The position numbers were made by a program, and so were the translations under genes. Below, in pieces: positions 1 to 52,836 of a stretch of 53,628 nt of DNA. The notes under the pieces were generated by a model, which did no database searches, was not told the DNA's origin, and saw only the letters and a list, made by a program, of their open reading frames with translations. Each line of letters starts with the position of its first letter. Position 1 is the stretch's first letter. This DNA comes from Ruminococcus sp. (lineage in GTDB: Bacteria; Bacillota; Clostridia; Oscillospirales; Acutalibacteraceae), in the NCBI GenBank assembly GCA_017473775.1, contig JAFUJH010000064.1, positions 1 through 53,628 of the forward strand, written 5' to 3'.

Positions 1-162
1 GAGCTGGCGGCGAAGCCGACTGAGGGGTAGTGATTTGTAGTTTTTCTCTCCCTCCGTCTTTTGCTTCGCAAAATCCACCTCTTCTGCGAAGACGGCAACC
101 CTTTTGTCTGCTTCGCAGACATTTCCCCTAACAGGGGAATTTCCTCGTCAGAGGGAGGCAAG
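1..162 (+). repeat. Family-B hairpin repeat, left end cut off, with family-D insert
   Basis: Bases 1-31 are identical to 35743-35773, and the block ends with the same GAGGGAGGCAAG as 35834-35845, so this is one copy of a repeat seen also at 35726, 39735 and 46703. Small hairpins are CGGC-GAA-GCCG (8-18) and TTTTGC-TTC-GCAAAA (59-73). The stretch 83-147 (TTCTGCGAAGACGGCAACCC onward, then CCCC..GGGG) is an extra module found again at 7019-7082. An open frame runs through the repeat into the next gene, but the repeat is not part of that protein. Confidence 0.75.
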
Positions 163-225
163 AGCTTTCTCCACAGACTGCGTCTTAAGGCAAAAATCCC
201 AAGACGCCCATTCGGAGGCGATAAA

Positions 226-1515
226 ATGAGAAGAAAGAAGGACGAGTATTTTATCGGTATGGTTGATAACTTCGCCGCCAGCCAGAGATACTCCAGAAAC
301 AAAAAACGAAGAAGGGCAAAGCTGTACCTTAAAAGAGGTCTGCTCATTGCACTGTGTGTGTTGATTATTGCAGGCATAGGTGCAGGTACATACTTCTTCC
401 TTATCCCTGCTGTTAAAAACTGGACTGCATCGTGGGGTGCAACCAAGGACGAGGCAACTATTGACGAGACAACAGTTGATGAGCTCCCCACCACTACCGC
501 CGCACCTGTTACAACGCAGGCTCCCACACAAGCACCCACCACAGTACCTGTGACAACTGCTCCTCCTGCCCCTGTGACAAATCTTGACTTTGTGACTCCC
601 ACAATTCCTGACGACGGCAGTGACGGCACACTTTACTCAAGCACATTGTATCTTTACAAAAACACAGGCTACAACCTATTCTTCAGCACAGACAAGGTTG
701 CAAAGCACTACGCTACTGCTGTTAACAATATTGCCGCAGGCCTTGATAAGGATATTACCGTTTACAATATGGTAGTCCCCAACCACACAGAGTTCGGTCT
801 GCCAACACGCATCGGCAAGAGTGTTGAGAATGTATCTCAGGCTGATAACATCCGCACAATTTACAAAAATCTCAGCAGCAGAGTTACTCCCATTAACTGC
901 TACAACGCACTCAGCGAGCATAACTCTGAGTACATCTACTACAACACCGACCACCACTGGACAAGCCTTGGTGCATACTACGGCTACACAGCATTCTGTG
1001 AGCAGACAGGGCTTGAGGCAGTGGATATCAATTCACTCAAGAAGAACTCCATCGACGGGTTTACAGGTTCTTTCTATACACTTACAAGCAACTCAGGTCT
1101 TTACAAGAACGCCGACACAGTCAACTACTACGATCTGCCTGTAGAGACCGAGGCAAAGATGAAGGAGCGTATGAGCTCTGACACCATCCACTGTGATGTT
1201 TACTATCCTGCTGCTACCTCGGGCACACTGACCTACGGTGTATTCTGCTGGGGCGACACAGCACAGTTTGTAATCAGCTCCTCTGCTAATACAGGCAAGA
1301 AGATTGCAGTTGTCAAGGACTCCTACGGCAACGCCTTTGCTCCTTACCTGACAGCACACTATGACGAGGTACACCTTCTGGACTTCAGATACTGGAGCGG
1401 TGACCTTAACGACTATCTCAAGACAAACGGCATTGACGAGGTGTTAATTATGAATAACACCATGTCTGCGAACAGCACCTCGCAGGTTAACTCAATGAGC
1501 AGTGCTCTGAGCTAA
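226..1515 (+). CDS. DHHW family membrane-anchored protein, putative polysaccharide O-acetylation factor
   Basis: A 429-residue protein with a basic N-terminus (KNKKRRR), one transmembrane helix near residues 40-60, then a Thr/Pro/Ala-rich linker that suggests an extracytoplasmic globular domain. That domain contains the family signature TDHHWTS (D242, H243, H244, W245) and a later KDSYG motif with a candidate nucleophile Ser366, the layout of the AlgJ/AlgX-like SGNH family that transfers acetyl groups to exopolysaccharides together with an MBOAT protein. I chose ATG 226 because GGAGG lies 8 bases upstream; an open frame continues to 61 but runs through repeat DNA. A paralogue with the same motif lies at 2836-3984 beside an MBOAT gene. 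The substrate is not known. Confidence 0.8.
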   Translation: MRRKKDEYFIGMVDNFAASQRYSRNKKRRRAKLYLKRGLLIALCVLIIAGIGAGTYFFLIPAVKNWTASWGATKDEATIDETTVDELPTTTAAPVTTQAPTQAPTTVPVTTAPPAPVTNLDFVTPTIPDDGSDGTLYSSTLYLYKNTGYNLFFSTDKVAKHYATAVNNIAAGLDKDITVYNMVVPNHTEFGLPTRIGKSVENVSQADNIRTIYKNLSSRVTPINCYNALSEHNSEYIYYNTDHHWTSLGAYYGYTAFCEQTGLEAVDINSLKKNSIDGFTGSFYTLTSNSGLYKNADTVNYYDLPVETEAKMKERMSSDTIHCDVYYPAATSGTLTYGVFCWGDTAQFVISSSANTGKKIAVVKDSYGNAFAPYLTAHYDEVHLLDFRYWSGDLNDYLKTNGIDEVLIMNNTMSANSTSQVNSMSSALS

Positions 1516-1548
1516 GATGCTCAGAGATTATGCGAGGAGGTTTAAGCA

Positions 1549-2246
1549 ATGCTGGCAAATGATGTAACCGCAACAATATACGGCACACTGTCTCCCACCC
1601 TGTACTCAGGCTATGCACAGGGTAACGGAACACAGGGAATAAATGCCTATGTAATATCCAAAAAGCCTGTGGGCGATACGCTTACAGGTGTTGTGACCGC
1701 AGTGCTGACACTGTCTGACGGGACACAGCGGGTAGTTGTTGCACCTAAAAACGAGATTATGTACGAGCCTGAGATTATGGAAAAGCTCAGTGCTCTCAGA
1801 CAGATAAAGATTGAAAAAATCAGCTGTCTTTACGAGAAGTCCTGCGGTGCGGTTATCCTCTACGAGGACAAAGCCACAGGCGACACTCTGATTCTGCTTG
1901 TCAAGAATCACAACGGCAGATTCTACAGCTTTCCCAAAGGTCATGTGGAACTTCACGAAAACGAGAAGGAGACCGCAGTCCGCGAGGTCAAGGAGGAGAC
2001 AAACCTTGATGTTGAGATACTGGACGATTTCCGCGAGATAAGCGACTACTGCCCCTTTGGCAAATCCGCAAGAGGGTAGTGTTCTTCTTAGCAAGAGCCA
2101 AAAGCGACAAAATCAAAATTCAGGAGAGCGAAATCGACAGTTATCAGTGGGTATCACTGGATAAAGCAGAAACCGTCTGCACCTACGACAACGACAAGCG
2201 GGTCATCGAAAAGGTCCGCAGATACCTGAAAGATCACAGGATATAA
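1549..2246 (+). pseudogene. Nudix hydrolase, frameshifted near its 3' end
   Basis: The first 176 codons (1549-2079) encode an N-terminal region of about 90 residues followed by a Nudix domain. The box reads G-x5-E-x7-REVKEETNL, with Asn where the consensus has Gly. Translation stops at TAG 2077-2079 just after KSARG. In the next frame, from GTA 2076, the sequence continues without a stop as VVFFLARAKSD... to TAA 2244-2246, which is the expected C-terminal part of a Nudix fold (strand, then a QWVSLDKA segment). One missing base in the GGG run at 2074-2076 explains this. It may be a true mutation, an assembly error or slippage on the short G run. The gene starts 33 bases after the DHHW gene with an AGGAGG site, so the two are probably cotranscribed. 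Confidence 0.75.
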
Positions 2247-2270
2247 CTGCTAACTACTTATATTAAACAA

Positions 2271-2315
2271 AAAACACTTCCGAACGATAGAAATTTCGGA
2301 AGTGTTTTCTTTTAT
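2271..2315. terminator. Bidirectional intrinsic terminator
   Basis: A perfect 14-bp stem (AAAACACTTCCGAA, 2271-2284, with 2295-2308) has a 10-base loop and T-runs on both strands. It lies between the convergent Nudix gene and the zinc-ribbon gene. Confidence 0.9.
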
Positions 2316-2325
2316 GCTTTCTCTG

Positions 2326-2823
2326 TTATTGCAATCTTTCGCCGCAGAAAATACATTTGGAATTTTCTGCCTTTTGCAACTGCATACAATGAGGACAATG
2401 AACCAAGTTGTTCCCTGTGCTCATTGCTTTATTTTCTGCTTTTTTATCTGCCGCTTTCTCAGGCTTACGGTCATCTTCGCCTGAATCTGCACAGTGACTA
2501 AGCATCCACAATTCAATAAGTTTTTCCGTTCTGTAGGTATTATCCAAAAGATTTGCCTTCGCACTTGCCTGCATAGCAAGATAGCAAGCCACACCGTAAA
2601 CTAAGGACGCGGTTATTACATCTCCTACCAAAATTAAAATACCAACCAACAAAAACTCATTAATCATCACTGCAATTGTCGTGATGATTCCTACCACAAG
2701 AATAATTACAGCAATAATCATACCTATCTTCTTTACAGAGTCAGCATAGCCTCTGAGCTCTGTTGCTGAAGAATCCTCCATATTGGAAATAGAGCGGACT
2801 TTTTTAGTATCAAATTCTTTCAT
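2326..2823 (-). CDS. Small membrane protein with C-terminal zinc ribbon
   Basis: A 165-residue protein with two strongly hydrophobic segments (about residues 30-55 and 60-85), then a charged linker and a C-terminal CPHC...CIFC pair that looks like a zinc ribbon facing the cytoplasm. I do not recognise a named family and assign no reaction. It starts 12 bases after the stop of the second DHHW gene, with an AAGGAGA site, so it is probably the last gene of the MBOAT-DHHW transcription unit and ends at the shared terminator. A membrane zinc-ribbon protein of similar plan occurs at 44555-45223, but the two are not obviously homologous outside the cysteines. Confidence 0.7.
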   Translation of the reverse strand: MKEFDTKKVRSISNMEDSSATELRGYADSVKKIGMIIAVIILVVGIITTIAVMINEFLLVGILILVGDVITASLVYGVACYLAMQASAKANLLDNTYRTEKLIELWMLSHCADSGEDDRKPEKAADKKAENKAMSTGNNLVHCPHCMQLQKAENSKCIFCGERLQ

Positions 2824-2835
2824 CTCAATGTCTCC

Positions 2836-3984
2836 TTACCCTAAATACCCAAGGTTTGTGTCGGTGCAGAAGTTGTTCATTCCGTAGAGGAACAGCACCT
2901 CGTCCACGCTCTCGCTGTTTATAATATCACTGACAGGGAGCTTGTAGTATCGCAAATCCACCATAATGACCTTACTGTAATTCTCTGCAAAGAAGGGAGC
3001 CGCACAGTGTGCAAAGCTGTCCTTGATAATCAGAATTGTATCATCACTCTTTGCCTTCGAGTTCTCAATTGTCACCAGTGCGTGGTTGCCGTCAAGGAAC
3101 ACAGGGTACATATCGTCCTCGCTCAGATGAGAGTCAAAGTACATACTGTCAAAGGTTTCGGTAACTGCACCCTCGGTGATAGTCACCTTTATGCTGTCGG
3201 AGATTGCTTTGTTCTCCCAGATTTCCAGTGTATCGGGGTCGTTTAAAAAGTATCCGCTGGAGGAATAGGTAGTGCCGTAGAAAGCCTCATAGGTGCTTAC
3301 AGTGTAGGCGTCCTTGTCGGTATACGCTACACCCTTATCCTCGCAGAATCTGCCGTATGCAGTATATGCACCAAGGCTTGTCCAGTGGTGGTCGGTTTTG
3401 TAGAAAATCTGCTCGTCGCTTACCACATGATCGCCGAAGTCCTCACACAAACCATAGAATCTGATGTTGTCCGCCTTGTTCTCATAGATATATTCGTACA
3501 CCTGCTCATCGGGATAATCGGCGTGAGCTTTTGGGAGCTTTGAGTCCAGCATATAGCCTGCAGAGGGCACAACCATCAATCCTACCTCGTCGAGTGTTGC
3601 ACTGAATCGGTTAATCAGTTCTAAGTTCTTCTCTGCTCTGTTTGAGTCAGCAGGCTTTGTGATAATGTAGCCGTCGTCTCCGTAGTAGTAGCCGTTGGAG
3701 GCGGTAGTGCCTGTGAGTAAATTCCAGTAAGCGTTCACACCTACAAAGAAGGTGCGGAAGGGGAAGTGGTCAGGGATATAGCCTCCGTTTTCGCCACCCT
3801 CAAGAGCATTTGTAAGCTCTCCTGCAAAGAAGCTATCCAAGGAAACCTCAGGTGCTTTTGCAAGGTATCTTTTTTCACTCGGGCTGTACTCGCTTTTGGG
3901 CAGTATCAGGAACAAACCGAAAAAACCAACAGTGAAGGCAAGGAAGATTGCAATAATTGATATCTGTGCTTTTTTATTGTTCAT
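2836..3984 (-). CDS. DHHW family protein, partner of the MBOAT acyltransferase
   Basis: A 382-residue protein with one N-terminal transmembrane helix (about residues 8-28) and an extracytoplasmic domain carrying TDHHWTSLGAY (D198, H199, H200, W201) and a downstream IIKDSF motif with a candidate catalytic Ser. This is the DHHW branch of the AlgX/AlgJ superfamily, whose members work with an MBOAT protein to O-acetylate secreted glycans. It begins 12 bases downstream of the MBOAT stop with GGAGG before the ATG, so the pair is translated from one message. It differs from the paralogue at 226-1515 in lacking the Thr/Pro linker. The function is inferred from motif and neighbourhood; the acetylated polymer cannot be told. 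Confidence 0.85.
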   Translation of the reverse strand: MNNKKAQISIIAIFLAFTVGFFGLFLILPKSEYSPSEKRYLAKAPEVSLDSFFAGELTNALEGGENGGYIPDHFPFRTFFVGVNAYWNLLTGTTASNGYYYGDDGYIITKPADSNRAEKNLELINRFSATLDEVGLMVVPSAGYMLDSKLPKAHADYPDEQVYEYIYENKADNIRFYGLCEDFGDHVVSDEQIFYKTDHHWTSLGAYTAYGRFCEDKGVAYTDKDAYTVSTYEAFYGTTYSSSGYFLNDPDTLEIWENKAISDSIKVTITEGAVTETFDSMYFDSHLSEDDMYPVFLDGNHALVTIENSKAKSDDTILIIKDSFAHCAAPFFAENYSKVIMVDLRYYKLPVSDIINSESVDEVLFLYGMNNFCTDTNLGYLG

Positions 3985-3996
3985 ATCCTTACCTCC

Positions 3997-5388
3997 TTAG
4001 AATCTGAAGTATATAAAGGGATTGTAGCTGTCGCTTACAAGGGAAGCGGTACACAGCACCATAGCTCCCACACAGCAGATACCCAGCAACACAGGATAAA
4101 GCTTTTTATCCTTGAGCTTATGATGCATAATCCTCAGCACAGGTGTGCTGAATATTGCACCTGCCACAGTTACAGGCAGGTAGCTCAGGAGCACTGCACC
4201 TGACTCGGAGCTGAACATTCCGTCAGTAGCTGTAAACAGTCCGCAAATGTAAGACCACAGTGCAGACACATCCTCAAAGTTGAAGATTGCCCAGCCAATC
4301 ATAATGAAGAACAGAGCATATATATGACCTACAAAAGAGGGAAGCTTCTGAAGAAGCTTTCCAAGGAAAAGCTTTTCAATTACAAGAAGCACAAAGAAAT
4401 AAAGTCCCCACAATAGGAAGTTATAAGCCGCTCCGTGCCACAGTCCTGTCATAGACCAGACTATGAACAGGTTGAGTATCTGTCGCGCAAAGCCCTTGCG
4501 GTTGCCGCCCAAGGGAATGTACAGATAGTCCCTGAACCAAGTGGAAAGAGAAATATGCCACCTACGCCAGAATTCGGTAATGGACTTGGAGATATAGGGG
4601 AAGTTGAAGTTCTCCATAAACTCAAAACCTATCATCTTGCCAAGACCTCGTGCCATATCACTGTAGCCTGAGAAGTCAAAGTAAATCTGCAGTGTAAGTG
4701 CCGCAAGTCCGCCCCATCGTGCAAGGAGTCCTTCGGCAGATTCTCCGCCTAAGTTCTCCCACATTGCGGCAAACTGATTTGCAAGGAGGACTTTCTTAGA
4801 AAGACCCACAAGGAACAGCACAACACCGTTTGCAAACTGAGAAATATTCTCTTTTCTGTCTATCATCTGGTCCTCTACATCCCTGTAGCGGACAATGGGA
4901 CCTGCAATAAGCTGTGGGAACAGAGTAACATAAGTACCCAGAATCAGAGGATTTTTCTGAGCGCGAGTATCCTGCATATATACATCGATTGTGTAGGACA
5001 TAGCCTGGAAGGTATAGAAGCTGATACCGATAGGCAGGGACGGAGCTTCAAAGGGGATATCTGCAAAAGGCAGAAGATTGATTGTGTCCACAATCATACC
5101 CGAATATTTGAAGAATACAAGAAGTCCCAAATTGATAACAACAGACAGCACAAGCCACAACCGCTGTTTTGGTTTGTTACCTGCCTCGTTTTCTATGAGC
5201 ATACCTGCAATGTAGTTTACAAGTATAGTGAAAAGCATCAACAGAATATACACAGGCTCTCCCCATCCGTAAAAGGCAAGGCTCACCACAAAAAGCACAA
5301 TATTCCTCACCTTTTTAGGTACTGCATAGTAAACAGCCAGTACACAGGGCAGATAGAAAAACCAGAAGGTTAAGCTGGAAAATACCAA
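3997..5388 (-). CDS. MBOAT family O-acyltransferase (AlgI-like)
   Basis: A 463-residue polytopic membrane protein of the membrane-bound O-acyltransferase family, which moves acyl groups across the membrane to extracytoplasmic polysaccharide acceptors. Visible signatures are RRWHISLSTWFRDYLYIPLGG and the conserved WHGAAYNF histidine (about H318). The start is probably the TTG at 5386-5388. This gives the usual family N-terminus VFSSLTFWFFYLP, and AGAGGAGG lies 7 bases upstream. The ATG at 5406 would translate that ribosome binding site as RGGK and has no site of its own. It heads the MBOAT-DHHW-zinc-ribbon unit. Confidence 0.9.
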   Translation of the reverse strand: MVFSSLTFWFFYLPCVLAVYYAVPKKVRNIVLFVVSLAFYGWGEPVYILLMLFTILVNYIAGMLIENEAGNKPKQRLWLVLSVVINLGLLVFFKYSGMIVDTINLLPFADIPFEAPSLPIGISFYTFQAMSYTIDVYMQDTRAQKNPLILGTYVTLFPQLIAGPIVRYRDVEDQMIDRKENISQFANGVVLFLVGLSKKVLLANQFAAMWENLGGESAEGLLARWGGLAALTLQIYFDFSGYSDMARGLGKMIGFEFMENFNFPYISKSITEFWRRWHISLSTWFRDYLYIPLGGNRKGFARQILNLFIVWSMTGLWHGAAYNFLLWGLYFFVLLVIEKLFLGKLLQKLPSFVGHIYALFFIMIGWAIFNFEDVSALWSYICGLFTATDGMFSSESGAVLLSYLPVTVAGAIFSTPVLRIMHHKLKDKKLYPVLLGICCVGAMVLCTASLVSDSYNPFIYFRF

Positions 5389-5461
5389 GAATTTTCCTCC
5401 TCTCATACTGTTTATATGGTCATAGGAGTCAAAAAGACGCCTTTGACCTCATTATACATAT

Positions 5462-5490
5462 ATAATATATGATTCCCGACTTATAGTCAA
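5462..5490 (-). promoter_or_regulatory. Sigma-A-type promoter of the MBOAT unit
   Basis: On the minus strand TTGACT (5485-5490) and TATTAT (5462-5467) are separated by 17 bases. The leader contains a small hairpin, GTCAAAG...TTTGAC, around 5428-5447. Confidence 0.65.
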
Positions 5491-5550
5491 TTTACAGAAT
5501 TATCATTATTTTGCACTTTGTTTTAACTTTTCCGTTACAAATGCCAAAAC

Positions 5551-5590
5551 AAAAAGAACACCGCAATTGAAAATCAACCGCGGTGCTCGT
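5551..5590 (-). terminator. Intrinsic terminator of the degV-family gene
   Basis: On the minus strand the stem GAGCACCGC/GCGGTGTTC is followed by TTTTTG. It sits about 35 bases past the stop codon. Confidence 0.8.
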
Positions 5591-5624
5591 ATATGGAGTT
5601 TCTCTTTGCTGAGTTAATGTCAGA

Positions 5625-6515
5625 TTAGTCTACGCGCTCATCGCCCCAGAAGAACACAGCAACTGTGCCGGGACCTGTGTGGCTGCCGATAGTAGTACCG
5701 ATGGTGTAAATCTGTACCTTGCCGTCAAGGTTGGGGAAGCTCTCCTCAATCAGTGCGGCAACCTCTTTTGCGTCATCCTCACAAGCAGAGTTACACATAA
5801 AGCACTTACCATTGTAGTTTGTGCCGCCCTCTGCGTGCTCCTTCATACGCTCAACGATTTCTACAAATACCTTCTTCTTGCCTCTTACCTTTGCACGAGC
5901 TGTAAGCTTACCCTCGTTGCTGACATTCATCAGAGGACAGATGTTCAGCACGCCGCCGATAAATCCGCTTGTCTTGGAAACTCTGCCGCCGCGTACAAGA
6001 TAGGTAAGGTCAGTGGTAAAGAACCAGTGGTGGAGCTTCAGCTTGTTAGCCTCAATCCAATCGCGGAGCTCAACAATACCCATACCGCCTGCACGAAGGT
6101 TAGAGGCAGTCTCCATAAGCAGACCCAGACCTGCAGCAGCAGCCAGAGAGTCAACAAGGTAGATTGTTCTCTCGGGGAACTCCTCCTTCATTGCCTCAAT
6201 AGCAAGGCGTGCAGAGTTGGAAACGCCTGACAGACCTGAGGACAGGCTCACATGGAGAATATCCTGACCGGTCTTGAGCAGTTCTCTGAAATAATCAGCA
6301 AAGTCGTTCTGGTTGAGCTGGTAGGTGTTTGTGATTGCACCATTCTCCATAGCCTTGTAGAACTCCTCATAAGAGGTAGTCTCGCCCAGGTCGTCAATGT
6401 ATGTTTTGCCGTCCATCATATAGGGAGTACAGATGTACTTGATGTCCAGGTCTTTCATCTTCTGTGCAGAAAAGTCTGTGTAAGAGCAGCAGCTGAGAAT
6501 ATAATTGTAAGCCAT
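5625..6515 (-). CDS. DegV family fatty-acid-binding protein
   Basis: A 296-residue cytoplasmic protein of the DegV/FakB family. Family members hold one fatty acid and, in Firmicutes, present it to the kinase FakA for incorporation into phospholipid. Recognisable parts are the N-terminal CSYTDFS segment, the SSGLSGVSNSARLA block that binds the carboxylate in this family, the DSLAAAAG helix, and GRVSKTSGFIGGVLNICPLM. I chose ATG 6515 because TTTGGAGGA precedes it; a longer open frame has no ribosome binding site. It is monocistronic, with its own promoter and terminator. No fakA is visible nearby. Confidence 0.9.
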   Translation of the reverse strand: MAYNYILSCCSYTDFSAQKMKDLDIKYICTPYMMDGKTYIDDLGETTSYEEFYKAMENGAITNTYQLNQNDFADYFRELLKTGQDILHVSLSSGLSGVSNSARLAIEAMKEEFPERTIYLVDSLAAAAGLGLLMETASNLRAGGMGIVELRDWIEANKLKLHHWFFTTDLTYLVRGGRVSKTSGFIGGVLNICPLMNVSNEGKLTARAKVRGKKKVFVEIVERMKEHAEGGTNYNGKCFMCNSACEDDAKEVAALIEESFPNLDGKVQIYTIGTTIGSHTGPGTVAVFFWGDERVD

Positions 6516-6613
6516 TTTTGTTCCTCCAAAATTTTCTAATAATCTTATTAATCCATATGTGCACAACAGAAACGCCTCGGCTTCTGAGCACCCACACATA
6601 TTTGAACATTATA

Positions 6614-6642
6614 ATTATACCTGCCGGTTGTTGACAAGTCAA
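6614..6642 (-). promoter_or_regulatory. Promoter of the degV-family gene
   Basis: On the minus strand TTGACT (6637-6642), 17 bases, then a consensus TATAAT (6614-6619). The -35 hexamer lies inside the palindrome annotated at 6629-6644. Confidence 0.75.
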
Positions 6643-6644
6643 CA
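6629..6644. promoter_or_regulatory. Operator-like palindrome over the degV -35 box
   Basis: TGTTGAC-AA-GTCAACA is a perfect 7-2-7 inverted repeat covering the -35 element, a position suited to a dimeric repressor. FapR-type or TetR-type control of a fatty acid gene would fit, but the site does not let me name the regulator. Confidence 0.45.
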
Positions 6645-6827
6645 GTTTTGCGCCAATTACCACTCTCCACTTAAATCTCCCGTGTCAACCACAAAAAAGC
6701 CAACTCTACCAACAGTAGAGTCTCCAGTGTTTATGCGGTTTATGAGTGTATATTTCAAAAAATTTCCTTTGTCTGCACCGAATGTTGAAAAGAATAAATC
6801 TTTGTGATATTATATTTTCAGAGAAGG

Positions 6828-7090
6828 GCTTATAAGGCTCCCCTGTGAGGGAAGACTCCCTCGTGTAATGAGCGAGATGTCCCCAAAGGGGACAGAGGGA
6901 ATCAGCTCCCTCCCCGAGGGAACTGTCGAGCTCTGCGAGACTGAGGGAGTCCACTTCTTCACTATTCACTATTCTCTTGATATTCACTCCTCCCGTCTGT
7001 GCTTCGCACAGCCACCCTTTCTGCGAAAGCGGCAACCCTTTTGTCCCTTCGGGTCATTTCCCCTATCAGGGGAATTTCCTCTCAGAGGAG
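6828..7090. repeat. Composite repeat cluster, degenerate first half
   Basis: Part of the 946-base gap between the degV and HAD genes; no gene is supported here. Visible modules are TGTCCCC-AAA-GGGGACA (6878-6894), CTCCCTC/GAGGGA arms, ACTGAGGGAGT, and the family-D module (TTCTGCGAAAGCGGCAACCC... CCCC TATCA GGGG, 7019-7082) shared with 83-147. A promoter-like TTGAAA-17-TATTAT (6785-6813, +) points into the cluster but leads to no gene. Confidence 0.65.
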
Positions 7091-7227
7091 GGCTTATAAG
7101 GCTCCCTCCTTGAGGGAGCTGGATTTCGGCAACGCCGAAAGACTGAGGGAGTTATTGAGACCTTTCCTTTTACTCCCTTCGTCATTGGCTTTCAGCCAAT
7201 GCCACCTCCCTCGTGAGGGAGGCTTTT
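7091..7227 (-). repeat. Family-A hairpin repeat, reverse orientation
   Basis: The reverse complement matches 52716-52836 and 35545-35662 over nearly the whole length: GGTGGCATT...AATGACG, GGGAGTAAAAGGAAAGG, AACTCCCTCAGTC, then ...ATCCAGCTCCCTC...GAGGGAGCC. Its hairpins are TTTCGGC-AAC-GCCGAAA (7124-7140) and CATTGGCT-TTC-AGCCAATG (7183-7201). Confidence 0.8.
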
Positions 7228-7365
7228 CGGGTCGTCGTGGGCGCCGACCCCTACAATAAGAGGAAATCTCCATCGTAGGGGCGATTCAAGAATCGCCCGA
7301 AAGGTTTTGCATTAAACGCAAGGTTTCGGATGAGCATTGCTCATCCCTACGCGATACAAAAGGGG
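7228..7365 (-). repeat. Family-C 'GTAGGGG' repeats
   Basis: A palindromic block, GGGTCGTCGTGGGCGCCGACCC followed by CTAC (read as GTAGGGGTCGG on minus), then GTAGGGGCGATTC-AAG-AATCGCCC and GATGAGC-ATT-GCTCATCCCTAC. Equivalent blocks occur at 52503-52620 and, as a fragment, at 12153-12177. Confidence 0.7.
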
Positions 7366-35457: not shown

Positions 35458-35535
35458 TATAAACTGTTGACGGATTGTGCAGTTACAGAGTATAATGTAT
35501 CAGTAAAATCCATTAAAATAAACGGTGCTGTTCCG

Positions 35536-35662
35536 GGTAAGCCCTCCTCACTGAGGAGGGTGGCATTTGCACAGCAAATGACGGGAGGAGTAAAAGGAAA
35601 GGTTTCCATAACTCCCTCAGTCTTTGCCTTCGGCAAATCCAGCTCCCTCAAGGAGGGAGCCT
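35536..35662 (+). repeat. Family-A hairpin repeat in the dnaK-dnaJ gap
   Basis: It matches 52716-52836 and the reverse of 7091-7227. Outer arms are CCCTCCTCA/TGAGGAGGG (35542-35560) and GCTCCCTCA/AGGAGGGAGC. Variable hairpins are CATTTGC-ACA-GCAAATG (35564-35580) and TTTGCC-TTC-GGCAAA (35623-35637). Confidence 0.8.
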
Positions 35663-35725
35663 ACTCCTTATTTCCGGAGCAGCACCTTGCAGTGTTTTTA
35701 TTAACTATCATACAAAGCAACTCTT

Positions 35726-35845
35726 GGCTCCCCTTGTGAGGGGAGCTGGCGGCGAAGCCGACTGAGGGGTAGTAAAACTATAACTTTTCTCTCCCTCCGT
35801 CTTTGCTTTCAGCAAAGCCACCTCCCTCGTCAGAGGGAGGCAAGT
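35726..35845 (+). repeat. Family-B hairpin repeat in the dnaK-dnaJ gap
   Basis: GGCTCCCCTTGTGAGGGGAGC opens the element; bases 35743-35773 are identical to 1-31. Variable hairpins are CGGC-GAA-GCCG and CTTTGCT-TTC-AGCAAAG (35801-35817). It ends CCTCCCTCGTCAGAGGGAGG. With the family-A copy it fills most of the 423-base gap before dnaJ. Confidence 0.8.
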
Positions 35846-39734: not shown

Positions 39735-39866
39735 GTGGCTCCCCTTGTCAGGGGAGCTGTCACCAAAGGTGACTGAGGGGTAGTAAAACTCTTATTAAAT
39801 CTGAATTTTCTCTCCCTCCGTCTTTCGGATGTGTCGAAAGACACCTCCCTCATCAGAGGGAGGCAA
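39735..39866 (+). repeat. Family-B hairpin repeat after mrp
   Basis: GGCTCCCCTTGTCAGGGGAGC opens, GAGGGAGGCAAG closes. Variable hairpins are GTCACC-AAA-GGTGAC (39759-39773) and GTCTTTCG-GATGTGT-CGAAAGAC (39820-39842). The shared frame ACTGAGGGGTAGTAAAAC and TTTTCTCTCCCTCCGTC matches 35761-35801. Confidence 0.8.
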
Positions 39867-45223: not shown

Positions 45224-45235
45224 ACGCACACAAGC

Positions 45236-45943: not shown

Positions 45944-45977
45944 TCTATCAACCCCCGAAGCTGTCAGAATTTATGTA

Positions 45978-46667
45978 TTACTTCAGCACCTGAGACAGCA
46001 CATCAACAGTTTTCTTTGCCGCCATAACCTTGAACTCGTCAAAGCTCATAGATGTGTTATTTGTCAAATCATCAGATATTGAACGAAGTATTGCAAAGGG
46101 AGTCTGCGCTCTGTAGCACACCTGTGCTATGGCACCACCCTCCATCTCGCAGGCAAGAGCAGAGAATTCCCCACCTATTGCAAGGCGTCTTGCTGTAGCG
46201 TGTACAAACTCGTCACCTGTGGCAATTACCCCTCGGAATACCTTTGTATCAGGTAAATTCTCAGCCGCCTCAAAGAGCTTTGCAGACAGCTCCTCGTCAG
46301 CAGGGAAGTTAATAATATTCTCGCCTGCACAGGTAATCATTCCCTTTGGCTCACCTAAGCCTGTGGTATCGTAATCGTGCTGTACAGCAGAGGTTGCAAT
46401 CACAACATCACCAACAGAAACCTCTGTGGAGAGTGCTCCTGCCACGCCGCTGTTGATAACACAGTCAACCTCAAACATATCAATCATCATTCTGGTACAG
46501 ATTGCAGCATTGACCTTGCCTACACCGCACTCTACAGCCACAACCTCAGTATTACCGATGTTACCCTTGTAAAAGGTAACTCCGTCACGGGTTATATCCT
46601 CTGTGTTATTCATAAGAGCAATGATACCCTCAACCTCTAAATTCATTGCACAAATAATACCTGTCAT
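45978..46667 (-). CDS. mtnN: 5'-methylthioadenosine/S-adenosylhomocysteine nucleosidase
   Basis: A 229-residue cytoplasmic enzyme that splits adenine from MTA and SAH, recycling the by-products of methylation and polyamine synthesis. It has the family start GIICAMNLEVEGIIALM, the NSGVAGAL phosphorylase-like motif, and the FSALACEMEGGAIAQVC and ILRSISDDL motifs with the catalytic acid (D in SDD). ATG 46667 follows AGGAGAC; the longer frame extends into repeat DNA. Confidence 0.96.
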   Translation of the reverse strand: MTGIICAMNLEVEGIIALMNNTEDITRDGVTFYKGNIGNTEVVAVECGVGKVNAAICTRMMIDMFEVDCVINSGVAGALSTEVSVGDVVIATSAVQHDYDTTGLGEPKGMITCAGENIINFPADEELSAKLFEAAENLPDTKVFRGVIATGDEFVHATARRLAIGGEFSALACEMEGGAIAQVCYRAQTPFAILRSISDDLTNNTSMSFDEFKVMAAKKTVDVLSQVLK

Positions 46668-46699
46668 TTTTATGTCTCCTCTTCCTCTGATTTCTGCTC

Positions 46700-46870
46700 C
46701 TTGCCTCCCCTTGTCAGGAAACTCCCTTATCAAGGGAGATGGCACGAAGTGCCAAAGGGTTTGCTGTTCCTGCAAGGAAAGGTGGGTTTTGTAAAACAAA
46801 ACTCGGAGGGGTAGTAAATTTTCTCTCCCTCAGTCACCTTTGGTGACAGCTCCCTCATCAGAGGGAGCCA
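46700..46870 (+). repeat. Divergent family-B hairpin repeat
   Basis: Shares GGAGGGGTAGTAAATTTTCTCTCCCTC with the copies at 35766 and 39775. Variable hairpins are GGCAC-GAA-GTGCC (46741-46753) and GTCACC-TTT-GGTGAC (46833-46847). The right end GCTCCCTCATCAGAGGGAGC is intact; the left end is rearranged. It fills the gap between rsmE and mtnN. Confidence 0.7.
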
Positions 46871-46892
46871 TGTGCTATTTTCTCTGTATTCA

Positions 46893-47621
46893 TCAATCAA
46901 AATTTCCGCTGAGGCACATAATTGCAGATATACCTGCAAGCGGTGCTGTCTCTGCACGGAGTATCCGTTTGCCCAGTGTTGCAGGGATAACTCCTGCTTC
47001 CTTTGCAAGCTCAACCTCAGATATATCAAAGCCACCCTCACAGCCTACAAAGACCGCCACAGACTTTATGTCCTTATTAATAAGTGCAGACAGAGATTCT
47101 CCGCCACCCTCATAAAAGATAAGGCTCAGGTCATTTTCTGATGCCTCCTGCACTGCCTGAGCAAAGCTCATCGTCTCTGACACCTCAGGCACAATTCCTC
47201 TGCAGGACTGCTGTGCCGCACCTGTGGCTATCTTCTGCCACCGCTCGGTTTTCTTGCGGAGGGATTTTTCGTCAGGACGGGACACGCATCGGGAGGTCAC
47301 AACAGGCACTATCCTGTGCACTCCAAGCTCCACTGCCTTCTGGACTATCATATCCATCTTATCCCCTTTGGTCAGGGATTGGTACAGGGTAACCTGCACT
47401 GACGCCTCCTGCTCACAGGGCTTTGAGCTGATAACTCTTGCTTCGACACCCTCTGAGCTGAAATCTGAAATCTCACATTTATGCTCTGTAAGGTCAGGGG
47501 ATACAAGGGTCAGCGCCTCACCCTTTTTCATTCTCAGGGATTTTTCTATGTGCTTTGCATCCTCACCTGTAATCAGATAGTCTGTACCGCTTATGTTCTC
47601 CTTAGAAAAAAACCAAGCCAT
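46893..47621 (-). CDS. rsmE: 16S rRNA (uridine-1498-N3) methyltransferase
   Basis: A 242-residue SPOUT-class enzyme that methylates U1498 of 16S rRNA. It has an N-terminal PUA-like domain (HIEKSLRMKKGEALTLVS) and a C-terminal knot with VFVGCEGGFDISEVELA and LGKRILRAETAPLAGIS. I chose ATG 47621, spaced 7 bases from GAGGAG; the ATG two codons earlier is too close to it. In many relatives this gene follows prmA; here the two are about 9 kb apart. Confidence 0.95.
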   Translation of the reverse strand: MAWFFSKENISGTDYLITGEDAKHIEKSLRMKKGEALTLVSPDLTEHKCEISDFSSEGVEARVISSKPCEQEASVQVTLYQSLTKGDKMDMIVQKAVELGVHRIVPVVTSRCVSRPDEKSLRKKTERWQKIATGAAQQSCRGIVPEVSETMSFAQAVQEASENDLSLIFYEGGGESLSALINKDIKSVAVFVGCEGGFDISEVELAKEAGVIPATLGKRILRAETAPLAGISAIMCLSGNFD

Positions 47622-47731
47622 AACCATACTCCTCAGCTAAAACTCATATATATAAAATATATCAAAAATCTCTCTCCATTGCAATAATCATCTTGCAATG
47701 GTACAATATAAATCGTATGGAAATTTATATT

Positions 47732-47760
47732 TTGGCAATATTAGTAAGTGAATATATGAT
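47732..47760 (+). promoter_or_regulatory. Promoter of the pncC-like gene
   Basis: TTGGCA (47732-47737), 17 bases, then TATGAT (47755-47760). Confidence 0.6.
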
Positions 47761-47781
47761 AAATTCTACGGAGGAATACAA

Positions 47782-48321
47782 ATGAACTATACCACAATAA
47801 CCGAGGATGATTTCTGCAGAATTCTTGAAGCAAAAGGCATAGACCAAAAGGAGCTGCCCAGACTTCTTATCAGCAAGCTTGAGGATAAGGGTATGAAGAT
47901 TGCTACCTCAGAAAGCTGTACAGGAGGACTTATCAGCAAGCTTCTCACCGACGAGCCGGGAGTATCGGAGGTTTTTGACTGCGGAGTGTGCTCCTATGCT
48001 AATTGTATCAAAGAAAAGCTCCTTGGTGTAAAGAGCGAAACTCTTGAATCCTTTGGTGCTGTGTCCCCCCAGACAGCCTCTGAGATGGCACAGGGTATCA
48101 GAAAACTTGCGTCCTCTCACATAGGTATCAGCACCACAGGCATCGCAGGGCCCTCGGGCGGCAGTGATAAAAAGCCTGTGGGGACCGTGTTTATAGGCAT
48201 TTCCTCAGAGAGCGAAACAAAGATAATAAAAGCCGATTTTACTGCAAAAAACAACAATCGAGATAAAATACGCCAACTCTCCGCTCATTTAGCCATTTAT
48301 TGTGCAATTGCCAGTATTTAA
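47782..48321 (+). CDS. pncC: CinA C-terminal domain protein (nicotinamide-nucleotide amidase)
   Basis: A 179-residue stand-alone CinA C-terminal domain, which in E. coli (PncC) deamidates nicotinamide mononucleotide for NAD recycling. Seen: ATSESCTGGLISKLLTDEPG (active Ser region), CSYANCIKEKLLGV, and TTGIAGPSGGSDKKPVGTVFIGIS. A short N-terminal extension of about 25 residues precedes the domain. The N-terminal MoaB-like half of full CinA is absent, as in PncC. ATG follows ACGGAGG. Confidence 0.92.
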   Translation: MNYTTITEDDFCRILEAKGIDQKELPRLLISKLEDKGMKIATSESCTGGLISKLLTDEPGVSEVFDCGVCSYANCIKEKLLGVKSETLESFGAVSPQTASEMAQGIRKLASSHIGISTTGIAGPSGGSDKKPVGTVFIGISSESETKIIKADFTAKNNNRDKIRQLSAHLAIYCAIASI

Positions 48322-48343
48322 GCCGTTTCTGCCCTGTAAAGAC

Positions 48344-48372
48344 TTGCCAAAACCGTTTCTTTGTGCTACAAT
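48344..48372 (+). promoter_or_regulatory. Promoter of malQ-glgP
   Basis: TTGCCA (48344-48349), 17 bases, then TACAAT (48367-48372). The leader is about 135 bases and has the stem CCACCG (48427-48432)/CGGTGG (48441-48446), which competes with ACAAC/GTTGT pairing; no known riboswitch is recognised. Confidence 0.7.
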
Positions 48373-48514
48373 CTTAATATCTATTGTAGTCAAATTATGA
48401 GTTTTTTCGAGCAAATTGAACTACAACCACCGAATGTTGTCGGTGGGGTATAGACCGCACACTATATATCGGAAGATATCCAAATAAAACATAATATTTT
48501 CAGGAGATGATTTT

Positions 48515-50017
48515 ATGTCAAGAGCAGCCGGCATCCTTATGCCCATCACTTCTCTGCCCTCTCCTTACGGAATCGGCACCATCGGTAAAGAAGCTTACAA
48601 GTTCGCAGACTTTCTGAAAAAAGCAGGTCAGACCATCTGGCAGATTCTCCCTGTAGGACCTACCAGCTACGGTGACTCTCCTTATCAGTCTTTCTCTACT
48701 TATGCAGGCAATCCTTATATGATTGACCTGGATATGCTTATTGAGGAAGGACTCCTTCAGGCATCTGACATTGAAGGCTACGAATACGGCTCAAACCCCG
48801 GTTATGTTGATTATGAGAAAATCTACAACTACCGCTTCGAGGTTCTCCGCAAGGCTTATGATAACTTCAAGGCTTTAGACAAGGACTCCGACGCTCAGAA
48901 GGCTTTCCGTTCCTTCAAGCGTAAAAACAGCGGTTGGCTCAAGAACTACGCACTCTATATGTCCGTTAAAAAGGCTAACGGTATGAAGGCTTGGACAGAG
49001 TGGGAGGATGAGAGCATCCGCGTAAGAGACGAAAAGGCAGTAGCTCGCTACACCAGAAAGTTCGCAGACGAGATTGGTTTCTGGAGCTTTGTTCAGTTTA
49101 AGTTCTACGAGCAGTGGGATAAGTTCCGCGCTTATGTTAATTCCCTCGGCATCAAGATTCTCGGCGATATGCCTATCTATGTTGCTATGGACTCTGCAGA
49201 CACATGGGCTAACCCCGAGGTGTTCTGGCTCACAGAGGAAAGAAATCCTGTTTGCGTTGCAGGCTGTCCCCCCGACTACTTCTCCGCTACAGGTCAGCTT
49301 TGGGGCAACCCCCTGTATAACTGGGATTACCTGAAGAGCACCAGCTACGCTTGGTGGTTTGAGCGTATCAAGGCGGCAACTGCTCTCTTTGATATCACTC
49401 GTATCGACCACTTCCGTGCATTTGACAGCTACTATGCAATTCCCTTCCCTGCTGAGAACGCAGTCGACGGCAGTTGGATGGTAGGCCCCGGCATTGAGTT
49501 CTTCAACCTGATGAACGAGCAGATTGAGGATGTTGAGATTGTTGCTGAGGACCTTGGCGACCTGACTCCCGGCGTTAAGCAGCTTCTTCTTGACTGCGGC
49601 TACCCCGGCATGAAGGTTCTGGAGTTCGCATTTGACAGCGGCGAGGCTAACGATTACCTGCCTCACAACTATCCTGAGAACTGCGTAGTATACTCAGGCA
49701 CACACGATAACGATACCCTCATGGGCTGGAAGGCTCAGGCTAAGGAGAGCGACATCCAGTATGCAGAGAACTACTGCGGAATCTCTCCTGAGGAAGGCTT
49801 CAACTGGGGTATCATCCGCACCGCTTACGCAAGCGTTGCAAAGTACGCCATCATCCAGATGCAGGACATCCTGGGTCTTGGTACTGAAGCAAGAATCAAC
49901 ACCCCCTCTACCCTTGGCGGTAACTGGGAGTGGAGAATAGATGCTGCTGCTCTCACTGATGAGCTGGCCGCAAAACTTAACGATATGGTAACCAACCACA
50001 ACAGAAAGAATGGTTAA
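48515..50017 (+). CDS. malQ: 4-alpha-glucanotransferase (amylomaltase)
   Basis: A 500-residue GH77 enzyme that moves alpha-1,4-glucan segments between maltodextrins, releasing glucose. It has the family start RAAGILMPITSLPSPYGIG, WQILPVGPTSYGDSPYQSFS, the nucleophile region FDITRIDHFRAF (Asp in RIDHFR), the general acid in IVAEDLGDLTP (Glu), and YSGTHDNDT. Complete. AGGAG lies upstream. It forms a two-gene operon with glgP, 28 bases apart, so that MalQ lengthens the dextrins that the phosphorylase then degrades. Confidence 0.98.
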   Translation: MSRAAGILMPITSLPSPYGIGTIGKEAYKFADFLKKAGQTIWQILPVGPTSYGDSPYQSFSTYAGNPYMIDLDMLIEEGLLQASDIEGYEYGSNPGYVDYEKIYNYRFEVLRKAYDNFKALDKDSDAQKAFRSFKRKNSGWLKNYALYMSVKKANGMKAWTEWEDESIRVRDEKAVARYTRKFADEIGFWSFVQFKFYEQWDKFRAYVNSLGIKILGDMPIYVAMDSADTWANPEVFWLTEERNPVCVAGCPPDYFSATGQLWGNPLYNWDYLKSTSYAWWFERIKAATALFDITRIDHFRAFDSYYAIPFPAENAVDGSWMVGPGIEFFNLMNEQIEDVEIVAEDLGDLTPGVKQLLLDCGYPGMKVLEFAFDSGEANDYLPHNYPENCVVYSGTHDNDTLMGWKAQAKESDIQYAENYCGISPEEGFNWGIIRTAYASVAKYAIIQMQDILGLGTEARINTPSTLGGNWEWRIDAAALTDELAAKLNDMVTNHNRKNG

Positions 50018-50045
50018 CACCTACAATAGACTGGAGGACTAAATA

Positions 50046-52400
50046 ATGAGTACCATTATGGAAAATCTTGAGCTTATTGCTAAAAGTGCTTATTGTAAAA
50101 AGCCTAAGGAACTGACAAAAGAGCAGCTTCACCAGGCTCTGGGTAAAGCCGTTATGGGCGACATCGCAGACCGCTGGGAGAAATCAAAGAAGGCTCACGC
50201 AAAGAAGCGCAGAGCTTACTACTTCTCTGCTGAGTTCCTTATGGGTAGAATGATTTACAACAACCTGTACTGCCTTGGCGCACTTGATGAGGTTAAAGAC
50301 CTTCTCAAGTCAAAGGGTATGAACATCAACCAGTTCGAGGATATCGACGACGCCGCTCTTGGTAACGGCGGTCTGGGCAGACTTGCTGCTTGTTTCCTTG
50401 ACTCTGCCGCTACACAGGAAGTTCCCCTTGACGGCTACGGCATCCGTTACAAGTACGGTCTGTTCAAGCAGAGCATCGAGAACGGCTATCAGGTTGAGAC
50501 TGCAGACGATTGGCAGAAGTTCGGCGATCCTTGGAGCATCCGTTGCATCGAGGACGCTGTAACAGTTAAGTTTGCTGACCAGACAGTTGTTGCTGTTCCC
50601 TATGATATGGCTATCATCGGCTACGGCACAAAGAATATCAACACTCTCCGTCTGTGGCAGGCAGAGGCTCTTAATGAGTTCAACTTCCTCCAGTTCAACG
50701 AGGGCAGATACGACGAGTCTATTAAGGCTAAGAATGACGCAGAGAACATCTCCAAGGTTCTCTATCCCAACGACAACTCCCGTGAGGGTAAGGTTCTCAG
50801 ACTCAAGCAGCAGTATTTCTTCTGCTCCGCTTCTCTGCAGGATATCCTCAAGAAGTACAAGGCTAAGTACGGCAATGATTTCTCTCATTTCGCAGAGATG
50901 AACGCTTGCCAGCTTAACGATACACACCCCATCTGCTGTATCCCCGAGCTTATCCGTCTTCTCGGTCTAGAGGGCGTAGGCTTTGATGAGGCTTTCGCAA
51001 TTGCTCAGAAGACATTTGCATACACCAACCACACAGTTATGGCAGAGGCTCTGGAGAAGTGGAGCATCTCCCTTATGCGCGAGGTTATCCCCGAGATTTA
51101 CTCCATCATTGAGAGAATCAATGAGAAGGAAATCTGCGATCTGAGAGGCATGGGCCTTGAGGAGTGGAAGGTTAACGAGATGCGCATCATCGACGGCGAG
51201 AGAGTTCACATGGCTCGCCTCGGTATCTATGCTTCCAGCTATGTAAACGGCGTTGCATGGATTCACACAGAAATCCTCAAGAACGATGTTCTCAAGGATT
51301 GGTATGCTATCTATCCCGACCGTTTCCAGAACAAGACAAACGGTATCACTCAGAGACGCTGGCTGGGTCTTTGCAACCCCGAGCTCTCCGACTTCATCAC
51401 TGCAAGAGTAGGCGACGGCTGGCAGAGAGACCTCAGTAAGCTCTCCGCACTTAACGATATGCTGGACGACAAGACCGTTCGCGAGTTCAACAAGATTAAG
51501 GCTAAGAAGAAAAAGCAGCTGGCTGCTTATGTTAAGAAGATGGACAACTTCGACCTTAACCCTGACTTCATCTTTGACATTCAGGTTAAGCGTCTCCACG
51601 AGTATAAGAGACAGCTCCTCAACGCTTTCTCCATTCTTTACATCTACTTCCTCATCAAGGACGGCAAACTTCCCAACTGGAATCCCACAGCTTACATCTT
51701 CGGTGCTAAGGCTGCTCCCGGTTACCGCCGTGCAAAGGCAATCATCAAGTACATCAACGAGATTGCAAACCTTGTAAACAACGACCCCGATACAAAGGAC
51801 AAGCTCCAGGTTGTATTCGTTTCCAACTACAATGTTTCCTATGCAGAGAAGATTGTTGTTGCTGCTGATTTCTCTGAGCAGATTTCCACAGCAGGTACAG
51901 AGGCTTCAGGTACAGGTAACATGAAGTTTATGCTCAACGGTGCAGTGACACTGGGTACTTACGACGGTGCTAATGTTGAGATTGCACAGAAGGCAGGCGA
52001 AGAGAACGAGTATATCTTCGGTGCACGAGTTGAAGAAATCGACAGACTCAAGAGAGAGGGTTACTGGCCCCGCGGTATCTACGAGAGCAACGAGTACATC
52101 AGACGCGTTGTTGACACACTGGTTAACGGTATGTTCAACGATGACGGTGCTCAGGGCGAGGGTAGCTTCCGTGAGCTCTGGGAGGGTATCCTTGACGGCA
52201 AGTGCTGGCACGCACCTGACCACTACTTCCTCCTCCTTGACCTTCAGGATTATGTTGATACAAAGATTCGTGCTAATGCTGAGTACGCAGACCGCGTATC
52301 CTTCGGCAGAAAGTGCCTCAAGAATGTAGCAAACGCAGGCGAGTTCAGCTCTGACAGAACTATCCTCCAGTATGCTAAGGAGCTCTGGCATGTTAAGTAA
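50046..52400 (+). CDS. glgP: Glycogen/maltodextrin phosphorylase
   Basis: A 784-residue GT35 enzyme that releases glucose-1-phosphate from alpha-1,4-glucans. Visible signatures are AALGNGGLGRLAACFLDSAAT near the N-terminus, QLNDTHP, VKRLHEYKRQLLN and the pyridoxal phosphate lysine in EASGTGNMKFMLNGA. Length and order are normal for bacterial phosphorylases. Preceded by GGAGG and followed by a strong terminator. It should act on stored glycogen or on imported starch fragments, a typical pair with malQ in starch users. Confidence 0.98.
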   Translation: MSTIMENLELIAKSAYCKKPKELTKEQLHQALGKAVMGDIADRWEKSKKAHAKKRRAYYFSAEFLMGRMIYNNLYCLGALDEVKDLLKSKGMNINQFEDIDDAALGNGGLGRLAACFLDSAATQEVPLDGYGIRYKYGLFKQSIENGYQVETADDWQKFGDPWSIRCIEDAVTVKFADQTVVAVPYDMAIIGYGTKNINTLRLWQAEALNEFNFLQFNEGRYDESIKAKNDAENISKVLYPNDNSREGKVLRLKQQYFFCSASLQDILKKYKAKYGNDFSHFAEMNACQLNDTHPICCIPELIRLLGLEGVGFDEAFAIAQKTFAYTNHTVMAEALEKWSISLMREVIPEIYSIIERINEKEICDLRGMGLEEWKVNEMRIIDGERVHMARLGIYASSYVNGVAWIHTEILKNDVLKDWYAIYPDRFQNKTNGITQRRWLGLCNPELSDFITARVGDGWQRDLSKLSALNDMLDDKTVREFNKIKAKKKKQLAAYVKKMDNFDLNPDFIFDIQVKRLHEYKRQLLNAFSILYIYFLIKDGKLPNWNPTAYIFGAKAAPGYRRAKAIIKYINEIANLVNNDPDTKDKLQVVFVSNYNVSYAEKIVVAADFSEQISTAGTEASGTGNMKFMLNGAVTLGTYDGANVEIAQKAGEENEYIFGARVEEIDRLKREGYWPRGIYESNEYIRRVVDTLVNGMFNDDGAQGEGSFRELWEGILDGKCWHAPDHYFLLLDLQDYVDTKIRANAEYADRVSFGRKCLKNVANAGEFSSDRTILQYAKELWHVK

Positions 52401-52430
52401 TTTTTAATTACGGACAAGCTATATAAATAA

Positions 52431-52462
52431 ACGGCACATCCGATTTGGATGTGCCGTTTTTG
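52431..52462 (+). terminator. Intrinsic terminator of malQ-glgP
   Basis: The perfect 11-bp stem ACGGCACATCC/GGATGTGCCGT is followed by TTTTTG. Confidence 0.95.
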
Positions 52463-52502
52463 AATGCCTTGATGAAACCCCACCTGTTAGGTGAGATGTT
52501 AT

Positions 52503-52690
52503 ATCGTAGGGGTCGGCGCCACGACGACCCGTTCCTCAATATAAATCGTATCTTCCCAGCGTAGGGGCGGTTCATGAATCGCCCCTACAATGTAAGCTTT
52601 CCTCTTATTGTAGGGACCGGCGTCCCCGACGGTCCAAACCTCTCCTAGACATCGAAACTTTCGGACGGACACATTCGTGTCCTACACCTC
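52503..52690 (+). repeat. Family-C 'GTAGGGG' repeat array
   Basis: GTAGGGGTCGGCGCCACGACGACCC, then GTAGGGGCGGTTCATGAATCGCCCCTAC (a perfect-ended palindrome), GTAGGGACCGGCGTCCCCGACGGTCC, and GGACGGACAC-ATTC-GTGTCC. The first two match the array at 7228-7365 in the other orientation. Confidence 0.7.
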
Positions 52691-52836
52691 ATCGGTCACC
52701 TTCGGTGACAGCTTCCCTCTTTGAGGGAAGTGGCATTGGCTGAAAGCCAATGACGAAGGGAGTAAAAAGGAAAGCTCTCAATAACTCCCTCAGTCTTTCG
52801 GCTTTGCCGAAATCCAGCTCCCTCAAAGAGGGAGCC
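52691..52836 (+). repeat. Family-A hairpin repeat after glgP
   Basis: Hairpins in order: GTCACC-TTC-GGTGAC (52695-52709), CATTGGCT-GAA-AGCCAATG (52734-52752), TTTCGGC-TTT-GCCGAAA (52796-52812), and the end CTCCCTCAAAGAGGGAG. The frame equals that of 35545-35662 and the reverse of 7091-7227. A family-C fragment, CGCCCCTACAATGTAG, follows at 52847-52862. Confidence 0.8.

Follow-up and report, generated by a model that had tools for sequence, protein, structure and literature searches.

Repeat units in the window

We analyzed a 53,628-nt stretch of Ruminococcus sp. DNA (contig JAFUJH010000064.1, assembly GCA_017473775.1), called the window throughout, for a short repeat in which an inner hairpin of changeable sequence sits in a nearly constant frame beginning CTCCCTC[A/C]GTC. 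The original prediction had listed seven loci with such a frame and variable, self-complementary stems. All seven hold units, and the repeat is both real and larger than claimed. The 11-base frame CTCCCTCMGTC has 10 matches in the window at up to one mismatch against 1.27 expected, a number reached in none of 100 shuffles. In the 2.46-Mb genome that contains the window (G000), it matches exactly at 74 sites compared with 8 for the control. The two-sided pattern CTCYCTYHGTCN{6,34}NCAVCTYCCTY, which leaves the hairpin free and is thus blind to pairing, finds 69 units genome-wide with none for the control. When mismatches were tolerated, 93 units were recovered from the window, stretch L001 and 47 fetched stretches. 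Three of these rows are misframed parses; their correct strings were used for pairing, and they were dropped from the neighbor, orientation, loop-by-transcription and outer-hairpin counts.

Read 5' to 3', a unit consists of CTCCCT[C/T][A/C]GTC, the inner hairpin, xyCA[G/C]CTCCCTC and then GAGGGAG, which forms the second arm of an outer hairpin. The right side differs from the [A/T]CC[A/C][C/G]CTCCCTC of the original prediction. Of 89 units (one further unit, at a contig end, was skipped), 71 form an outer hairpin (CTCCCTC..GAGGGAG) with 7 or 8 pairs and no interruption; with shuffled flanks, 1 of 89 does. The two sides of the frame are coupled, with A...G (A frame, 123) and C...C (C frame, 67) accounting for 190 of 198 distinct units. 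Frame variants, designated type II-left (CTACCCCTCAGTC, 9 matches) and type III (CTCCTCCCGTC, 14 matches), carry variable stems too, and the frame is therefore nearly, not absolutely, fixed.

Another unit lies within 250 bp of 58 of the 90 units. Among the 33 neighboring pairs, 16 are inverted with their GTC tags inward, two are inverted with tags outward and 15 run in the same direction. An A and a C frame are joined in 15 of the 16 tag-inward pairs. Spacing is 14–20 nt in 10 of the 15 same-direction pairs. Tandem arrays of A units with 14–20 nt spacing are seen at L039, L057, L067 and L078, which suggests slippage. The clusters are intergenic, with only one of 57 inside an open reading frame (ORF) longer than 200 aa by crude ORF calling. 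The units and composites of the window, as read from the sequence, are as follows.

1..33, minus strand: left-hand unit in a type II composite (GGC stem, GAA loop as read on the plus strand); cut at the window start
48..87, plus strand: C-frame unit, stem TTTTGC/GCAAAA; another repeat family (about 88–150) interrupts after CCACCTC
6838..6949, minus strand: two tandem A-type units with outer hairpins; the second (6916–6949) has a stem with a T.C/C.T internal mismatch
6988..7079, plus strand: type III unit, stem TGTGC/GCACA in a CTCCTCCCGTC-type frame; fused to a second repeat family, CCCTTTTGTC-hairpin-ATTTCCCC
7096..7151, minus strand: A-frame unit, stem TTTCGGC/GCCGAAA, outer hairpin; left half of an inverted heterodimer
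7173..7223, plus strand: C-frame unit, stem ATTGGCT/AGCCAAT, outer hairpin; right half of the heterodimer with 7096..7151
35541..35591, minus strand: type III unit, stem ATTTGC/GCAAAT; composite between dnaK terminator arms
35612..35661, plus strand: A-frame unit, stem TTTGCC/GGCAAA, outer hairpin
35727..35771, minus strand: left unit of a type II composite, stem GGC/GCC
35791..35841, plus strand: C-frame unit, stem TTTGCT/AGCAAA, outer hairpin
39737..39783, minus strand: left unit of a type II composite, stem TCACC/GGTGA
39812..39863, plus strand: C-frame unit, imperfect stem GTCTTTCG/CGAAAGAC, outer hairpin
46703..46821, minus strand: left part of a type II composite; its outer hairpin holds another repeat
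46825..46869, plus strand: A-frame unit, stem GTCACC/GGTGAC, outer hairpin
52711..52763, minus strand: C-frame unit, stem ATTGGCT/AGCCAAT, outer hairpin
52785..52838, plus strand: A-frame unit, stem TTTCGGC/GCCGAAA, outer hairpin

The second repeat family, CCCTTTTGTC-hairpin-ATTTCCCC, is fused to or inserted in CTCCCTC composites at 88–150 and 7020–7079 and has 11 matches in the fetched stretches of G000 and the window. In the type II composites at 46703–46821 and in L062, a similar foreign repeat breaks the outer hairpin at the same point, and such composites may thus spread after interruption.

Pairing and diversity of the inner stems

The arms of the inner hairpin keep their pairing far beyond chance. 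In 192 unique cores, 859 of 943 stem positions are Watson–Crick pairs, compared with 526 (standard deviation [sd] 16, maximum 584) in 2000 shuffles in which right arms were permuted within length classes. These cores derive from 246 distinct genome–unit combinations in 49 genomes, a sample among the matches listed to which several genomes with frame matches contributed no strings and from which one overlapping match in G143 was left out. The window genome alone gives 218 of 235 paired positions versus 159 after shuffling (sd 7, maximum 186). The shuffles take no account of kinship, which makes a count of different perfect stems more reliable. Of 74 distinct left arms with 3 nt or more, 45 are matched by a perfect partner, 15 by one with a single mismatch and 14 by a poorer one. 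The window genome contributes 22 distinct left arms, of which 15 have a perfect partner, so that the stems neither reduce to one or two sequences nor change independently in their arms.

Per species, in genomes listed whole, the stems fall into few types, with G000 appearing more diverse. The stem type GTC-TC..TC-GAC, whose T.C/C.T internal mismatch is fixed, is seen repeatedly in different families and in predicted phages (L067; G067, G213 and G264; viral G552 and G553). The original prediction had proposed either strong selection for the fold or module swapping. This reading is supported in part, in that the arms do keep their pairing. A modular exchange of stems between the two frames, or a common stem vocabulary, found no significant support: a stem of at least 4 bases was common to both frames in only 2 of 10 genomes (P = 0.19).

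Stem dimensions were taken from 154 distinct units with at least three stem pairs and a loop of 3–5 nt, the other 44 of the 198 being unparsed under this rule and set aside. Loops of three bases, which had been expected in nearly all copies, are indeed the commonest (99), yet four-base (41) and five-base (14) loops also occur. Stems measure 3–7 bp in 150 of these units. The base preceding GTC is A in 162, C in 78 and T in six of the 246 units. CA is present in all 246, as the search pattern requires; in the 154 parsed units, the base before it is A or C. Flank and stem length offset each other: with GA, which lets GTC pair with GAC in 79 of the 154 units and so extends the stem, the inner stem averages 4.06 bp, compared with 5.0 for flank GC and 6.4 for TC (p = 1e-11).

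Strand asymmetry of the loops

The loops are strongly asymmetric between strands. Loops of the form T..C make up 51 of the 99 three-base and 22 of the 41 four-base loops, with G..A found in two and none, respectively (pooled, 73 versus 2, n = 140). Five-base loops give 3 and 0 (n = 14). Counted per distinct stem, T..C occurs in 31 of 51 and G..A in two. The pair closing three-base loops is C/G in 92 of 99, so that C(GNA)G or C(GNNA)G lies on the complementary strand. The test was repeated on 44 new viral cores, 33 of them with a parsable loop of 3–4 nt, and gave 20 T..C versus 2 G..A.

Imperfect pairs follow the same strand. Excluding the loop-adjacent pair, A.C and C.A total 19 versus 4 for G.T and T.G (p = 0.0026), which places the wobbles on the complementary strand, where the recurrent T.C/C.T pair (22 cells) corresponds to tandem G.A. 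Predicted stability with DNA parameters is higher for the complementary strand in 118 of 192 cores and lower in 15; RNA parameters again favor that strand, in 113 versus 16 cores.

Among codirectional clusters, 35 units are sense and 29 antisense. T..C loops occur in 11 of 25 units whose strand is sense, 17 of 27 antisense, 10 of 19 elsewhere and none of five at contig edges; none of these 76 units has a G..A loop (14 units were set aside). The asymmetry thus goes with the unit and not with transcription. GNA and GNNA loops with G–C pairs are described as extraordinarily stable DNA mini-hairpins (PMC4686876), and their placement on one strand regardless of gene direction points to a folded single-stranded DNA form.

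Distribution, relatives and predicted viral contigs

Within the genus, 33 of 161 genomes carry the frame and the reversed pattern occurs once (in G125); within the class, the frame is present in 22 of 391 genomes, representing 15 of 223 genera, and the reversed pattern once each in six genomes. G000 is counted in both sets. A single frame match may be chance, as those in G170 and one of the four in G080 appear to be. Collinear DNA is available from four relatives (L002–L005), which are metagenome-assembled genomes of Ruminococcus or Oscillospiraceae. Eleven comparisons with these relatives covered three window loci (L003 stops before the third), and all of them lacked the composites; 10 showed no trace. 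At 35520–35690 of the window, the composite lies inside the dnaK terminator and separates its arms; in L002 this terminator is an uninterrupted hairpin. The nearest genome among the 161, searched at an 8-kb locus, is G045 with 82–90% DNA identity; with none nearer, stem changes at orthologous positions could not be followed.

In IMG/VR, the A-frame pattern matched 53 stretches and the C-frame pattern 24, on about 66 contigs of which some are near-identical; the reversed A-frame pattern, a control for that frame only, had no matches. Nine of the 10 proteins searched from two of these contigs matched PHROGs: L120 encodes terminase, portal, virion and tail proteins, and L132, in viral contig G551, a repressor, a replication initiator and a thymidylate synthase-like protein. 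The 40 viral A-frame cores, including 12 already seen, are paired at 154 of 166 positions versus 117 after shuffling (sd 7, maximum 140).

Different paired stems occur in the same frame inside one predicted viral contig, both in G551 and in G555. G551 has five two-hairpin modules (L132 2205–11456) in which 16 bases to the left and 28 to the right of the hairpin are identical, with variable sequence further out. Within the hairpin, the differences are C:G versus G:C, a length change of one base per arm, and the loop sequence. The four copies in G555 have three different inner-hairpin pairs, all paired, in a near-identical type II frame, one copy being altered at its left end. In G554, one of six copies shows a paired difference of A:T versus G:C. 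Among phages and plasmids, one type II module had no match, and one G551 module gave a single weak 49-base match to an unannotated fecal phage record. Start-associated sequences of Cluster K mycobacteriophages are reportedly a repeated module upstream of several phage genes, and offer a possible analogy to the G551 modules.

Search for a mobilizing enzyme

The only Y1 match in the window genome is a RAYT-like remnant of 121–124 aa. Across 60 genomes of the genus, Y1 is present in 10 of 18 with units and in 22 of 42 without, and so does not follow unit presence. In five of 10 other unit-bearing genomes (G087, G090, G367, G264 and G211), no Y1 match was detected. We inspected 53 fetched Y1 stretches, a part of the Y1 matches in which L093 overlaps L029 and many are IS200-like rather than RAYT-like, and none contains an intact unit. 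Four hold a match to the 11-base frame at up to one mismatch, of which only L028, near a Y1 fragment in G017, resembles a degenerate unit. The REP-like transposase (RAYT) acting in trans that the original prediction had suggested is thus not borne out, whereas a likeness to repetitive extragenic palindromic (REP) sequences is supported by 69 short palindromic copies between genes and by inversion in 18 of 33 neighboring pairs, both general traits of REPs and bacterial interspersed mosaic elements (BIMEs).

Palindromes of the GTAGGG[G/A] type with variable stems lie at 7274–7299 and 52505–52640 of the window (23 regular-expression matches in the fetched G000 stretches and the window). These repeats are found at, inside or near some RAYT-like genes (L001, L030, L091 and L112), in line with the division into GTAG repeats with RAYT and CGTC repeats without it (PMC3733652). 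An autonomous partner gene between neighboring units was also considered; the ORFs in nine intervals resemble ordinary chromosomal genes, as judged by eye without a family search.

Interpretation

We read the units as REP/BIME-like non-autonomous mobile repeats of gut Clostridia, whose frame would be recognized by sequence and whose inner stem by shape in single-stranded DNA, and assign this reading a probability of roughly 0.55. The element combines an outer hairpin with an inner one in a conserved frame, and inverted pairs of one A and one C unit form a common composite. Its folded strand would read GAGGGAGxTGxC-stem-C(GNA or GNNA)G-stem-GACxGAGGGAG. With only the shape of the inner stem recognized, its sequence could drift freely provided that both arms change together, and arm-templated replication (quasipalindrome correction) could supply such paired changes in one step. 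A putative enzyme acting in trans, which need not be a Y1/RAYT protein, may move the units, and phages may spread them. A more specific form is tentative and, taken whole, doubtful: a class-wide mobile repeat with a fixed flank and an inner stem read by shape alone, in which a strand-specific single-stranded DNA mini-hairpin (GNA/GNNA, with tandem G.A mismatches in some subfamilies) is read by a putative enzyme outside the Y1/RAYT group and carried by phages.

Several observations weigh against the main reading. Absence in relatives means gain or loss and is not proof of transposition; in L004, 24 bases between dnaK and dnaJ may be a remnant. Target-site duplication, which together with cognate transposase ends would mark an IS-derived MITE, was not found in comparisons with relatives too diverged to place the composite borders. 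A mobilizing gene was not found in a search of the Y1 family, no other transposase family having been searched. Kinship among the sequences makes the shuffle statistics optimistic. The loop preference is missing in some abundant stems of the window genome (TTTCGGC with TTT, GTT, GAT and GGT), and because RNA parameters agree with DNA parameters, the fold alone cannot separate the two. In addition, all five G551 units run with the following genes, and three end 25–37 bp before an ORF of at least 150 aa (the remaining two lie 192 and 267 bp from an ORF), a position where an RNA role, or a leader or operator function, is possible.

The same pairing could come from mutation alone, with template switching or quasipalindrome correction copying one arm onto the other without selection, and spread occurring through recombination and slippage. 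Template switching has been proposed to create and maintain hairpins (PMC8794818), same-frame copies in G551 and G554 differ by just such paired changes, and the 14–20 nt spacing of most same-direction pairs would fit. This account does not predict the loop asymmetry, however, since switching that inverts the spacer would yield both orientations, and it leaves a frame kept across a class unexplained; we consider it unlikely.

Function at the RNA level, with mRNA hairpins near gene starts or ends selected for stability, termination or translation, agrees with the intergenic position of the clusters, the leader-like placement of three G551 units and the RNA stability estimates. Against this, orientations to genes are about equal, one unit of each inverted dimer would be wrongly oriented, and the loop asymmetry is tied to the unit. 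Read in unit orientation, only 9 of 84 non-Watson–Crick cells are G.T, and Rfam has no match in the window at gathering threshold. This explanation is improbable.

A classical system of inverted REP pairs (REPINs), with a RAYT (Y1 HUH) transposase in trans recently lost from the window genome, could draw on the inverted pairs, the hairpins, the truncated RAYT-like gene and the degenerate unit in G017, but is highly improbable given the distribution of Y1, its absence from half of the other unit-bearing genomes examined and Y1 stretches that lack intact units yet at some sites carry GTAGGG repeats.

A near-invariant frame, combined with dozens of different paired stems in Clostridia and in some predicted phages, distinguishes the parts that have to be constant from those that need only pair. 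If true, a class-wide repeat read by shape would provide a testable mobilization substrate for CGTC-like REPs, which lack a known transposase. The loop asymmetry shows which strand to test as single-stranded DNA, making a biochemical search for the enzyme practical.

Comparison with known repeat systems

A literature search, judged from listings, gave no paper on this repeat; the 11-base string appeared only in papers unrelated by title, and most subscription papers were outside the search. The original view that no described system combines a fixed frame with exchangeable stems is nevertheless too strong, as GTAG and CGTC REP families have a fixed tag and alternative complementary stem residues (PMC3733652). 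The units come closest to the CGTC-tagged REPs of that account, sharing a short palindrome, a GTC-containing tag, perhaps a CCA-like tail, stems with alternative complementary sequences, inverted dimers, a place between genes and the lack of an associated transposase, here with respect to Y1 in the 53 stretches, other families not having been searched. They fail several defining features, however. CGTC REPs have an unpaired CGTC (or TGTC/CCTC) end tag, whereas AGTC is found in 162 of 246 units here and GTC is pairable in 79 of 154. Their stems are 8–9 bp with A/T at the first two positions and their loops 4–5 nt, in contrast to stems here that lack the fixed A/T start and are mostly 3–7 bp, with a 3-nt loop in 99 of 154. 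Their dimers are head-to-head with tags outside, whereas tags are inside in 16 of 18 inverted pairs here, and the units add an outer hairpin. Because tag, stem, loop and dimer orientation all differ, we do not classify the units as CGTC REPs. The main text of the 2013 paper by Di Nocera et al. (PMC3733652) names five phyla, with Firmicutes and Clostridi- terms absent from it, and states as an open question how CGTC-type repeats move.

With GTAG REPs, BIMEs and REPINs, the units share inverted hairpin pairs with a conserved foot. The foot of RAYT-linked REPs and REPINs is GTAG or GTGG, whereas the frame here is CTCCCTC[A/C]GTC...CA[G/C]CTCCCTC, and no RAYT gene flanked by intact units was seen in the 53 fetched Y1 stretches. 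For one RAYT subclass, foot and stem length are described as summing to a narrow range of 10 to 13 nt (PMC6006769), which resembles the compensation between stem and flank in the units. The likeness to the GNA/GNNA mini-hairpins lies in the loop and closing C–G pair on the complementary strand of the units, although those mini-hairpins are known from oligonucleotide studies (PMC4686876) and not as a repeat family. What is new here is the strand asymmetry of the hairpin loops.

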